A stretch of 64,000 nt of DNA, taken from the NCBI RefSeq assembly GCF_009936215.1, contig NZ_AP019551.1:775501-839500 (forward strand), read 5' to 3'. A model generated the notes under the pieces. That model worked only from the letters and a program-made list of their open reading frames with translations. It was not told the DNA's origin and did no database searches. The DNA is from Athalassotoga saccharophila (GTDB lineage Bacteria; Thermotogota; Thermotogae; Mesoaciditogales; Mesoaciditogaceae). A program made the translations under genes and the position numbers. This document shows, in pieces, positions 2,939 to 8,826 of this stretch (position 1 is the stretch's first letter; the number at the start of each line of letters is the position of its first letter).

Positions 2939-4117
2939 TCATTTTATAACGCTTACTGTACCGCTTCCGTAATTCACAACGTATATTTCGCCCAAATTCT
3001 GATCTATCTTCACGGCACAGGGTTCATGGCCGACAGATATAACCCTTATTATCGATTCGGTCTGGGCATTCAAAAAGATCAAGGAATCTGCCTTCGAGTT
3101 GGTAAGATAAATGGCATTTACCGATGGATCGTATGTCATGCTGTTGATACCAGTGCCAACGTTGAATGTTCCTATTACAGCGTAATTCTTTATCATGCTT
3201 ATACTTCCGTCAGATTCATTCAGTACATACACGATACCATTTCCGATGCAGACAGAGGACGGATTATTCCCTACCTTGACGGTATTGATTACCATATTCG
3301 TGCTTCCATTTATCACGCTTACAGTGTTGTCTCCGGAATTCGTCACGTATATCGAATTGTTATTTTCGTCTACGGCTATACCGTAAGGACTTTTGCCAAC
3401 GTTGACGGTACCGATGACTTTATTCGTTGATGCATCTATTATGCTTAAAGTATTGTCAAAGTTATTCGCTACGTATATCCTGTTTGTTTTTGCATTCAGT
3501 GCAATTCCAAGCGGCTCATTTCCAACCTTTATATTCGTTATGACCTTATCCGTTTTCGCATCTATGACCGTCACTGTATTGTCTCCGAAATTTGCAACGT
3601 ATACCATGTTGTTTTGAGGGTCAAAGACCATCTTCCACGGATCTATTCCAACATTTATCTGTTTGAGAATGTTGTAGGTTGAAAGATCGAAGACATCAAC
3701 GATATTTTGTGAAGAGACGCTTACGTACCCCTTCCCGTCCTTCGGATCCAAGATCAGATCGCGTGGTTTGTTGCCGACATCAAAGACTCCATTTACCTTT
3801 TCCTGAATGCCGTAGAAGTTGGCATTTTGGTAATTTCCATTCACATCTATGGCAGGGGTAAACCTCCACCCGGCCTTCTTTGCATCTACCTTTACATCTC
3901 CCTTTAGACCGTTCTTCGTCCAGTATCCATTAGAATTCGTGTAGACGGGAGCATATCCATTGCTAAAACTTATCATGACATTTTCTATAGGATTTCCTTC
4001 AAAATCACGGACGTATCCCGATACTGTATAGGTCAAAGATTGGACATAAAAAAGTCCTGCGATTATTCCAACTACAACGCCTATTCCTATGATCAAATAG
4101 ACAAAAAAATCATTCAA
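2939..4117 (-). CDS. Membrane-anchored YVTN beta-propeller protein with N-terminal carboxypeptidase-regulatory-like domain
   Basis: Residues 6-28 form one hydrophobic segment (signal anchor). Residues 30-100 resemble a carboxypeptidase-D regulatory-like/Ig fold ([17 protein letters not shown]). The remainder is about seven repeats of roughly 42 residues with the YVTN/YncE signature ([18 protein letters not shown] and similar), which form a beta-propeller. Such propellers are usually extracytoplasmic binding or scaffold modules; no catalytic site is visible. It lies between tpiA (19 nt) and serS, an odd position for a surface protein. SD GGAGG is upstream of ATG 4117. The ligand is unknown. 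Confidence 0.85.
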
Positions 4118-4135: not shown

Positions 4136-4894
4136 TTAGCAGAATTTGGTTGCTATTTTGTATATCTCAATGAATTCGTCTAACTTCAAAGAGGCACCAC
4201 CTATCAATCCTCCGTCTACATCTGGAAGAAGGAAGAGTTCCTGACAGTTTTCTTTATTCATGCTGCCACCGTAAAGGCAGGAGATTTTCTCTGCCATGTC
4301 AGGATAAATTTTTCTCAACTGATCTCTGACGTACGCTATCGCTTCCTGCGCCTGATAAGGCTGGGCCACAACCCCGGTTCCTATTGCCCATACAGGTTCA
4401 TACGCTATCGTAAGTCTTTGCGGATCTTCGATTTTGACCCCTTCTAAGTCTTTGGTAAGTTGATCTTTTATTACGTCAAAGGTTTTTCCGCTTTGCCTCT
4501 CGTCGAGCGTCTCGCCGATACAAAGAATGACATTCATCCCGCCCGAGATGGCGGACTTTACCTTTTCGTTTATGAACTGATCGCTCTCGCCAAAGATATG
4601 CCTTCTTTCCGAATGTCCTATTATAACATGATCTATTCCCATGTCTTTGAGCATCGGGACGCTAACCTCTCCGGTAAAGGCTCCGGACTTTTGAGAATGA
4701 ACGTTTTGTGCTCCCACCACGATATCGTAGCCTGTGAAGATCTCTTTGACAACAGAAAGAGACACAAAAGAGGGAAATACCCACATCTTTGTGTCTCCGC
4801 TAAATCTTACGATCTTTATCAAATCCCTTGCGAAAGCCCTTGCCTCCGAAGGGGTTTTGTTCATTTTCCAGTTACCGGCTACTATCAGCGGACG
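4136..4894 (-). CDS. tpiA: Triosephosphate isomerase domain, expressed by -1 frameshift as PGK-TIM
   Basis: TIM interconverts dihydroxyacetone phosphate and glyceraldehyde 3-phosphate. The reading frame carries the first strand with catalytic Asn and Lys ([14 protein letters not shown]), the electrophile His (IGHSERR), the catalytic Glu ([11 protein letters not shown]) and the phosphate loops ([14 protein letters not shown]). The only ATG (4864) lies after the active-site Lys, so a protein starting there would lack Asn11 and Lys13 equivalents. No usable start or ribosome site precedes the first strand. The frame is -1 relative to pgk and overlaps its last codons at a run of nine A (4903-4895). 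It is therefore most likely made as the C-terminal half of a PGK-TIM fusion of about 650 aa, as in Thermotoga maritima. The coordinates mark the TIM-specific frame, not a free-standing ORF. Confidence 0.9.
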
Positions 4895-6087
4895 TTTTTT
4901 TTTGCGTCTGAGATCGAGGCGATCCCGGGCAATTCTTTTCCTTCCAAAAATTCGAGAGATGCCCCACCACCGGTTGAAACGTGAGAGACCTTTTCAGAAA
5001 GACCGAATTTGTCCATCGCTGCGGCGCTATCACCACCACCGACGACTGTGGTCGCATTCTTCATCTTTGCAAGCACTTCGGCTACGGCCTTTGTACCGGT
5101 TGCAAAATCGTCTATTTCAAAAACACCCATCGGACCATTCCACACAACGGTCTTTGCGCCGCTGAGTTTAGACTTGAAAAGTTCGATGGTCTTCGGTCCT
5201 ATATCTAAACCCATCCATCCATCTGGAATTCCAGAGGATATATCCAAGATCTTCTTTTCAGCACCGGCCTTCAATTCTCGTGCACACACGGCGTCAACGG
5301 GAAGAACGAAGTCGACGTTGAGTTTTTTTGCGTTTGCGAGGATCTCTTTTGCAACGTCCAATTTATCCTCTTCAAACTTTGAAGCGCCTATTTTGTACCC
5401 TTGGGCCTTTAAGAATGTGAACATCATGGCTCCGCCTATAAGAACCCTATCGGCCTTTTTGAAAAGGTTGTCTATAACCCCTATTTTGTCCGATACCTTG
5501 GCTCCGCCGAGTATAACGACGTAAGGCTTTTCAGGAGAATAGGTAACCTTCGAAAGCATCTCGATTTCCTTTTCCATTAAAAATCCAGCAACGGATGGAA
5601 GATACTGCGCAACTCCCACGTTGGATGCATGTGCCCTATGGGCAGTTCCGAATGCGTCGTTGACGTGAATATCTCCTAATTTGGCAAAAGACTTCGAAAG
5701 TTCGGGATCATTTTTCTCCTCGCCGGGGAAAAACCTCGTATTTTCCATGAGCACGACATCGCCCGGCTTCATTGAGTTGACGAGCCCTTCAGCCCTTGGA
5801 CCGATAGTATCGTGACAGAAAGTTACCTTTCTACCAAGGAGTTCTTCGAGTCTTTTTGCCACAGGCTCGAGTGAGAATTGAGGATCCGGTCCTCCCTTTG
5901 GTCTGCCAAGGTGGGAAAGGAGTATAACCTTCCCACCCTTCTCTATCACGTATTGAATGGTCGGCAATTCCGCCCTTATGCGGGTATCGTCAGTTATTAC
6001 ACCTTTTTCAATTGGAACGTTGAAATCCACGCGCATCAAGACGCGCTTATTTTTCAGATCAACATCCCTTACCGTTAATTTGCCCAT
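4885..6087 (-). CDS. pgk: Phosphoglycerate kinase (also N-terminal half of PGK-TIM)
   Basis: PGK transfers phosphate between 1,3-bisphosphoglycerate and ADP in glycolysis. 400 aa, normal length. Signatures: RVDFNVP near residue 20, substrate-binding [10 protein letters not shown], hinge and nucleotide motifs [23 protein letters not shown] and the C-terminal GGGDSAAAM and [16 protein letters not shown] 6087 ([11 protein letters not shown]) is preceded by a GGTGG-type site; the ORF runs 28 codons further upstream into gap, which is a shadow. The gene lies 11 nt after gap. The 3' end contains the A9 slippery run. In-frame reading ends at TGA 4887-4885 just after it, giving free PGK; a -1 shift gives PGK-TIM. 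Confidence 0.96.
4895..4903 (-). promoter_or_regulatory. A9 slippery run, -1 programmed frameshift site between pgk and tpiA
   Basis: On the minus strand GC is followed by nine A then CGTCCGCTGATAG. The zero frame reads GCA AAA AAA AAC GTC CGC TGA. The -1 frame reads AAA CGT CCG CTG ATA and enters the first TIM strand. A tandem AAA AAA slip is a classical bacterial -1 site, and A-runs this long can also cause polymerase slippage. Neither mechanism can be separated by reading. Confidence 0.82.
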
Positions 6088-6098
6088 AAAAACCACCA

Positions 6099-7450
<1,352 letters not shown>

Positions 7451-7452
7451 TT

Positions 7453-8826
7453 TTAACCTCCTTCCGGGAGAATCTTTCCGCCAAACAAACTTAGGACCTT
7501 TATGACAGGCTCTTTGAGATTTTCTTCCATAGAATCGATTGGTATTTTCGAATAGGCAAAGACAAAATGTGCATCTCTTTTGGTCATTTCTTTGAATTTG
7601 TTGTTTATCTCTTCTCTCTTTTCATCTAAAATCTCTTTGTGAAGAGGAGCGTAAGAGATGACGAGTATTCTATCGCCTAAATCTTTCAAATTTGACATTT
7701 TTAAAGACACGTAAATGGAAAGATCTTCACTTTTATAACTTTCCACAAATCTTTCGATAATACTCTCGACTGTCTGATCCTTCTCGACTGTCTGCGCTTT
7801 CTCCGTTTTAGGATTATATCTTTCATCTTTGTACTTTAACGCTTCAAAGACGCTCATGATTTTAAAAACATCGAATTGCCTTTCTTCGTATTTAAGGTAC
7901 TGGATCAGATCAATTGCAAATTTGCCAATTTGAATCATTTGAAGATCTTCTATTTTTTCCGATGAATATTCTACCACATTTTTAAGGAAATTCATGACAT
8001 CGATGCCGCGATTTTTGATCGATTCCATTGTATTGATAAGCGATTCAACATTTCCATTCAAAATCGAGAATGTGTAATTTTCGACGATTTCGACTGGGCT
8101 TTCTCCGAGCACTATAAGTGTATCGTTTAAAGTTATCTTGTCTTGGGAAAATCTCGATATTTCCTCAAGCATTCCAATGGCATCTCTCATGCCGCCGGAC
8201 GCAACTTTGGAAATATGATCGATTGCGGATGGTTCATATTCTATCTTTTCATTTTCGCATATTCTTACAAGTCTGTTTCTTATAACATCTGATGGGATTC
8301 TCCTGAATTCGAGAACCTGACATCTCGACAAAACAGTTTCTGGAACTTTTTGCATCTCAGTCGTTGCGAGAATGAAGATGGTCTTTTCTGGTGGTTCTTC
8401 GAGCGTTTTTAAAAGCGCGTTGAAGGCCTCTCTCGTTAGCATGTGGACCTCATCGATTATGTAAACCTTGTACTTCTGATTGAAAGGCATGTAAGCGACT
8501 CGATCCCTTATATTTCTTATCTCGTCTATTCCCCTGTTTGATGCCGCATCCATTTCTATGACGTCGAGTGAATTTCCGGAATCTATTTCAACGCATGAAT
8601 CACACACATTGCACGGCTCATAACCATCTACAGGGTTTGAACAGTTGATGCTCTTTGCCAAGATCCTTGCAACGGAAGTCTTTCCCGTTCCACGCGGACC
8701 GCTGAAAAGGTAGGAATGGGAGATATTCTTTGATTTTACGGCATTTATGAGTATTCTTTTGACATGATCCTGCCATACAACGTCTTCGAATTTTTTGGGC
8801 CTGTACTTCAAATAAAGTGTACCCAT
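7453..8826 (-). CDS. dnaX: DNA polymerase III subunit gamma/tau
   Basis: AAA+ clamp-loader subunit. Walker A SGPRGTGKTS (42-51), zinc-binding cysteines at 62, 72, 75 and 78, Walker B VYIIDEVHML (121-130) and sensor 1 ILATTE are all present. At 457 aa it is shorter than E. coli tau and closer to gamma plus a short C-terminal region. I see no long A-run that would give a frameshifted form. SD GGAGAG precedes ATG 8826. Probably the first gene of the minus-strand operon; the upstream spacer (8827-8911) has A/T-rich -10-like sequence but no clear -35. Confidence 0.95.
   Translation of the reverse strand: MGTLYLKYRPKKFEDVVWQDHVKRILINAVKSKNISHSYLFSGPRGTGKTSVARILAKSINCSNPVDGYEPCNVCDSCVEIDSGNSLDVIEMDAASNRGIDEIRNIRDRVAYMPFNQKYKVYIIDEVHMLTREAFNALLKTLEEPPEKTIFILATTEMQKVPETVLSRCQVLEFRRIPSDVIRNRLVRICENEKIEYEPSAIDHISKVASGGMRDAIGMLEEISRFSQDKITLNDTLIVLGESPVEIVENYTFSILNGNVESLINTMESIKNRGIDVMNFLKNVVEYSSEKIEDLQMIQIGKFAIDLIQYLKYEERQFDVFKIMSVFEALKYKDERYNPKTEKAQTVEKDQTVESIIERFVESYKSEDLSIYVSLKMSNLKDLGDRILVISYAPLHKEILDEKREEINNKFKEMTKRDAHFVFAYSKIPIDSMEENLKEPVIKVLSLFGGKILPEGG

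Follow-up and report, generated by a model that had tools for sequence, protein, structure and literature searches.

A conserved run of adenines at the pgk–TIM junction of Athalassotoga saccharophila and other Thermotogota as a candidate site of transcriptional slippage

The pgk–TIM overlap in Athalassotoga

How does Athalassotoga saccharophila obtain a complete TIM when the one reading frame that encodes it has no standard start codon ahead of its catalytic residues? The question arises at the 3' end of pgk in a 64-kb stretch of the genome, the whole of which we call the window; the features described here lie on its minus strand. pgk (4885–6087; ATG at 6087, TGA at 4887–4885) encodes a phosphoglycerate kinase (PGK) of 400 residues that matches PF00162 over its full length (1–379 of 379). 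The TIM reading frame (4136–4993) is −1 relative to pgk, is open from 4993 to a TAA at 4138–4136 and matches positions 2–244 of the 245 in PF00121 (E = 1.3e-90). Within the 3' end of pgk is a slippery run of nine A's (A9; 4895–4903, T9 on the plus strand), and the pgk stop codon, 7 nt 3' of the run, terminates the PGK-only product. The portion of the TIM frame that would be read after slippage is 4136–4903. Immediately 5' of pgk is gap (6099–7103; glyceraldehyde-3-phosphate dehydrogenase, named from its translated sequence), which likely shares an operon with pgk. A frame with YVTN-type beta-propeller repeats, recognized by eye, lies directly 3' of the TIM frame at 2939–4117.

The catalytic Asn and Lys of TIM fall in a GNWKM motif (4862–4876) whose last codon is also the first ATG of the frame (4864–4862), such that initiation at this ATG would remove both residues. 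The frame is open for 39 codons ahead of the motif, none of them ATG, GTG or TTG, and a free TIM made from a standard start in the window was rejected for this reason; the non-standard codons in the interval are ATT (twice) and ATA, ATC and CTG (once each). Insertion of one A into A9 in silico joins the two frames into a PGK-TIM fusion of 650 residues. A PF00121 search of the whole genome assembly (2.04 Mb, 91.6% complete) found no second TIM, and pgk is hence followed directly by the sole TIM gene, overlapping in −1, as in the Thermotogota PGK/PGK-TIM pair. The core of this arrangement had been anticipated in the first-pass annotation, which described a TIM frame without a start before the catalytic Asn/Lys, an overlap with pgk at a nine-A run in the −1 frame, and PGK together with a fusion of about 650 aa, and which named the absence of another tpiA as a check. 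It had also dismissed an upstream SD-like AAGGAAAAG, about 30 nt off, as too distant. This element (4935–4943) sits within the conserved EGKELPG codons, ~31 nt 5' of A9, and we too judge that it is not a frameshift stimulator.

Kinship with the PGK-TIM of Thermotoga maritima, likewise proposed at first pass, is borne out by both halves of the locus. The best solved relative of the TIM frame is 1B9B (E = 6.4e-73), which we take to be the structure of T. maritima TIM. That of the pgk product is 1VPE (E = 2.3e-186), identified as T. maritima PGK in the available text of PMC7729029. In a tree of PGK and TIM proteins the window row clusters with the other genomes of its genus and nests among the 98 Thermotogota rows, each grouping with a support of 100, and the gene pair is an additional case of the T. 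maritima kind. Three other genomes of the genus have an identical A9 and an identical frame, making four with the window genome, which argues that the out-of-frame state is not a sequencing slip.

The run and the frame across Thermotogota

We searched 103 Thermotogota genomes for TIM, found a match in 99 and read 98 junctions. One TIM that begins at a contig end without pgk (G101), a second TIM-like piece of G024 with no match to the window TIM (L100) and a duplicate of L002 (L101) were excluded; the four TIM-less genomes (G018, G069, G078 and G079) have estimated completeness of 71–94%. The genes are out of frame at 52 of the 98 loci (51 at −1, one at +1) and fused in frame at 44. Two loci of family f5/g8 (L002 in G013, L099 in G019) have a TIM gene that is separate from pgk, follows it immediately and has an ATG of its own; either the fusion was lost there or the history of these loci is distinct. 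With lengths taken partly from draft assemblies, the out-of-frame junctions bear A9 in 42 and A10 in nine cases, all of them −1, and A8 at the sole +1 locus; 35 of the fusions carry A9–A11 and nine a shorter run or none. The run at the +1 locus (L049, in G091) is one A shorter than in L050, its sister; this may be a sequencing slip, or the locus may depend on slippage in the opposite direction.

A run of at least eight A's is thus kept at 87 of the 98 loci, as transcriptional slippage would require, and no out-of-frame locus among the 98 lacks one. Counted by genus, at least one member has the run in 30 of the 36 genera read and all members have it in 28. The conserved feature is the run itself and not the −1 frame, because many relatives are fused in frame yet keep the run. 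Indeed, each of the three possible pgk phases is represented among the runs, and seven genera contain more than one frame state while keeping the run. In a quick tree of 128 rows (including the 98 from Thermotogota), many branches of which are weak, rows with the run require no fewer than 13 changes of frame state, against about six changes in presence of the run. Many of the frame differences are indels outside the run, where run length is the same and phase and spacing differ, and hence are not homopolymer sequencing errors.

The run is also closely framed by stop codons. The pgk stop falls within 12 nt after the run in 52 of 52 out-of-frame loci. In 36 of these a further stop, no more than 3 nt from the first A, shuts the TIM frame, so the switch of frame is confined to the run or its immediate edge. 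From the stop of the TIM frame to GNWK, 31 of the 52 loci have no ATG, GTG or TTG and 21 have one.

In-frame fusions show the same near-stop pattern that is expected of transcriptional slippage, namely early termination of the non-productive frames. In 29 of the 35 run-bearing fusions each of the other two frames meets a stop within 12 nt, against 9.95 expected when the codons 3' of the run are resampled among synonyms according to codon usage at the same locus; none of the nine run-less fusions shows this (0.09 expected). Counted by genus the figure is 12 of 16 against 3.3. The six exceptions among the 35 are G006, G009, G012, G017, G100 and G102, two of them from the window's family. Codon-usage chance was rejected as the source of the run, since synonymous resampling of the 44 fusions gave 14.2 with a run against the 35 observed; for the run-bearing fusions alone, a set chosen for having the run, the values are 35 of 35 and 12.9. 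Each of the nine run-less fusions has one PGK gene only, which implies that PGK alone is dispensable for some of these organisms. A second, distant PGK gene occurs in five Thermotogota genomes (G006, G021, G037, G051 and G062). These paralogues were considered as makers of free PGK and discarded, none of the five genomes being a run-less fusion, and they do not account for loss of the run.

Transcriptional slippage and its alternatives

We think it probable that RNA polymerase slippage on A9 yields both PGK and PGK-TIM in Athalassotoga. The gap-adjacent pgk/TIM pair would be one expression unit with two products. Slippage of RNA polymerase on A9 would generate a mixed pool of mRNAs, in which messages with nine A's would give PGK alone (400 aa, ending at the stop 7 nt past the run) and those with ten (9+1) the 650-residue PGK-TIM. 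With standard start codons the fusion would be the only route to a complete TIM; the predicted outcome is PGK in excess, with all or nearly all TIM covalently joined to PGK. Selection may keep the run across the phylum in either state, since slippage would give the fusion from out-of-frame DNA and PGK alone from in-frame DNA with a run. The first-pass annotation had suggested a conserved way of setting the PGK:TIM ratio. Conservation is evident (87 of 98 loci with the run); a ratio-setting role is something we infer more cautiously, because nine of the 44 fusions lack the run, implying that some of these organisms do without free PGK.

The sequence context of the run is exceptional. A9 at 4895–4903 is the sole run of eight or more A's or T's in the window, where both strands together hold 260 A5, 100 A6, 41 A7, no A8 and one A9; Markov models of the window's base statistics predict ~4–9 runs of at least nine. 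The genome as a whole has five A9 runs in 2.04 Mb against ~130–280 expected from window statistics, and outside the junction no A-run exceeds eight in 184,127 nt of coding sequence for pgk and TIM at the 98 loci. In-frame A AAA AA(A/G/C) heptamers, on the other hand, number 29 in the 57 kb of window ORFs. The Athalassotoga genome avoids homopolymers of eight or more while tolerating ribosomal slippery heptamers, and the frequency of such heptamers elsewhere counts against the main alternative, in which programmed −1 ribosomal frameshifting at A AAA AAA or A AAA AAC in the run, as in Escherichia coli dnaX, would produce PGK-TIM.

Several observations are in keeping with ribosomal frameshifting. 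Both heptamers lie inside the run in the window and conform to X XXY YYZ in frame, suitable heptamers occur within the run in every phase, the stop follows directly (0 nt) in 26 of the 52 out-of-frame loci, and 51 of the 52 are shifted in the −1 direction. In the available text of PMC3711429, mixed directions are a sign of transcriptional slippage and a single conserved direction one of ribosomal frameshifting; applied here, to 51 FS-1, one FS+1 and 35 in-frame loci with the run, that rule favours neither mechanism, as the frame does vary while the out-of-frame loci are almost uniformly −1. Slippage dominated by insertions would favour the same −1 class as ribosomal frameshifting. Other features fit the ribosome poorly. 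The run has at least nine A's in 51 of the 52 out-of-frame loci, although a ribosomal heptamer needs only seven or A AAA AAG. Its third codon in the 35 phase-0 out-of-frame loci is AAA in 34, AAT in one and never AAG, where AAG makes up 17–65% of Lys codons depending on family. In-frame fusions that retain the run, with stops in both other frames, count against the ribosome as well.

Folding and SD pairing, calculated for 51 FS-1 and 35 fused loci, gave no stimulator in either group. Downstream folding over 70 nt, computed without pseudoknots, had a mean z of −0.05 across the 51 FS-1 loci and of −0.02 across 156 controls, and at the window locus (z = −1.02) there is no stem-loop of the E. coli dnaX type. 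SD pairing 6–20 nt upstream of FS-1 runs is weaker than in controls (−0.95 vs −2.32 kcal/mol), in line with the first-pass opinion of the SD-like element; an SD-like stimulator at ~10–14 nt is lacking in the window, AAGGAAAAG being 31 nt away. An upstream hairpin in the window fold (GGGAUCG..CGAUCUC) was set aside as it is absent, by eye, from G001 of the same genus. Taken with the length of the run and the fate of in-frame relatives, these results make ribosomal frameshifting unlikely in our view, and transcription is favoured over translation as the step at which slippage would occur in Athalassotoga. The first-pass annotation had also called for slippage at the run but had left ribosome and polymerase on an equal footing, whereas the phylum data favour the polymerase. 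Its description of a −1 frameshift likewise suits the window, where the frame is −1, and not the many relatives that are in frame.

A separate TIM might instead arise by translation coupling at a non-standard codon, either the ATT at AAGGAAAAG-ATT spacing or a CTG or ATA before the first strand. The ATT does lie a few nt 3' of the SD-like element, a 32-kDa TIM spot is recorded for T. maritima (in the available text of PMC3465335) and 21 of the 52 out-of-frame relatives have ATG, GTG or TTG before GNWK. The last two points also leave unproven the earlier statement that there is no free functional TIM, of which this much stands, that the window has no complete TIM frame opening with a standard codon. 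Yet the other 31 relatives have no such codon, an ATT would be useless in the 36 loci where a stop close to the first A closes the TIM frame, the 32-kDa spot could be a cleavage product and the A-run is left without explanation. We strongly doubt this route. Even less credence attaches to variation of run length in the DNA itself, whereby replication slippage would create mixed populations and frame would be set by phase variation and not by recoding. Run lengths do range from 8 to 11 across the phylum, and T. maritima differs from its congeners by one A (A10 vs A9). However, all four genomes of the window's genus have A9 in the same frame, many frame differences are the indels outside the run noted above, and TIM is probably needed in every cell for glycolysis. 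Out-of-frame genes at homopolymers are a classic artefact, but a broken gene or sequencing error is barely credible here and is largely refuted by the relatives: the state recurs in four genomes of the genus, 52 of 98 loci are out of frame, and TIM is full-length (PF00121 2–244 of 245) with no other TIM in the genome.

Polymerase slippage thus remains the reading we prefer. If it holds, genomes with a clean fusion (T. maritima, G096) and those with what look like two broken genes (about half of the loci) would express the same two proteins, the junction would be a rare case in which polymerase slippage has become fixed phylum-wide in a gene of central metabolism, with convergence elsewhere, and pipelines that split or 'repair' the gene in annotation would call for caution. 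The comparison makes the mechanism testable by one RNA experiment.

Known systems, a clostridial lineage and other A9 runs

The T. maritima PGK-TIM is said to have been known since 1995, with the mechanism of frameshifting left open; Schurig et al. (1995, EMBO J.) reportedly described overlapping frames and suggested a programmed frameshift. We took genome G096 as T. maritima since it contains 8 of 8 tested peptides from the proteomic study PMC3465335 (next best, 6 of 8), and its junction, with A10, reads in frame. In T. maritima strains the run may instead be A9. As far as the available text of the review PMC7729029 goes, T. maritima makes PGK and a 70-kDa tetrameric PGK-TIM, and T. neapolitana makes PGK with 73- and 81-kDa fusions; the available text of PMC3465335 gives T. 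maritima spots of 43 kDa (PGK), 70 kDa (PGK/TIM) and 32 kDa (TIM), the last of which leaves room for either free TIM or a cleavage product. If the G096 sequence is that of the cultured T. maritima, its PGK-only protein is most simply accounted for by slippage. The window locus resembles that of T. maritima, for which PGK and a 70-kDa PGK-TIM are reported, in its single pgk directly followed by the sole TIM, in its junctional A-run and in having 1VPE and 1B9B as nearest solved relatives of the two halves. It differs in being out of frame at A9 and on another branch, near Mesoaciditogaceae.

The closest mechanistic precedent is dnaX of Thermus thermophilus. The available texts of PMC5009743 and PMC1088944 describe slippage that is efficient at nine A's and, for Thermus dnaX, an A9 that has stops close by in each alternative frame, along with two tRNA-Lys. 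Athalassotoga shares the A9, the near stops and the two tRNA-Lys (ctt and ttt, both in the genome). In Thermus, however, the long product is in frame and both products belong to a single protein, whereas here two enzymes are joined in a long product that requires a change of frame; RNA heterogeneity has been measured for Thermus dnaX and is predicted for Athalassotoga. Poly-A slippage in Citrobacter tssM1 and Yersinia tssM3, shown by AAG swaps in the available text of PMC4256274, provides a parallel for both polarities, the long product coming from slippage in one gene and the short product in the other. It concerns two tssM genes only, unlike the pgk run, which is phylum-wide and in a core metabolic gene. 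E. coli dnaX is similar in its A-rich site, −1 direction and two products, and dissimilar in that the homopolymer here is longer and that neither a nearby SD nor a downstream stem could be detected. A dnaX-like frame in the window itself (7453–8826, minus; 457 aa), so named by eye and located two genes 5' of gap-pgk, lacks any run of eight or more A's, from which it follows that slippage of the Thermus dnaX type is not used in that gene.

A scan of 84,980 species genomes for a PGK end motif followed by A9 returned 30 stretches, comprising 22 from Thermotogota, six ordinary pgk ends and two clostridial PGK-TIM fusions with A10; the pattern recovers 57 of the 86 loci known to have at least nine A's, and other groups may be missed. 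The six ordinary ends (L104, L106, L108, L111, L114 and L129) were discarded, the A-run lying beyond the stop and TIM being absent. The clostridial order concerned (that of G103) is represented by 33 genomes, of which 31 match most of the TIM profile, one matches part of it and one has no match; 30 loci were read. PGK-TIM occurs at 11 of the 30, all in one clade (support 100), L135 being out of frame and the other ten in-frame fusions. Five of the 11 carry A9 or A10 (L132, L133, L135, L145 and L148), and the other two frames both end within 12 nt at three of the four fused loci with a run and at none of the six without. The remaining 19 loci have separate TIM genes, and 'FS' labels on run-less clostridial rows denote separate genes in differing frames, nothing more. 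PGK and TIM proteins of this order fall apart from those of Thermotogota (support 100), from which placement the clostridial fusion and run look to be of independent origin. We regard it as an even question whether selection acts across the phylum on the run for itself, indifferent to frame, with at least a dozen changes of frame and a second origin in the clostridial clade; within that reading, a product ratio in which TIM is tied to PGK and free PGK is in surplus would have been selected repeatedly. A search of openly available main text found no paper describing the run across the phylum.

The other four A9 runs of the Athalassotoga genome (G000:C1:221699, 499748, 1020096 and 1378776; L162, L163, L165 and L166) all lie within open reading frames and are candidates for further slippage sites. 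One is near the start of a plsX-like frame, named by eye, and another is near the end of a frame of 454 codons.
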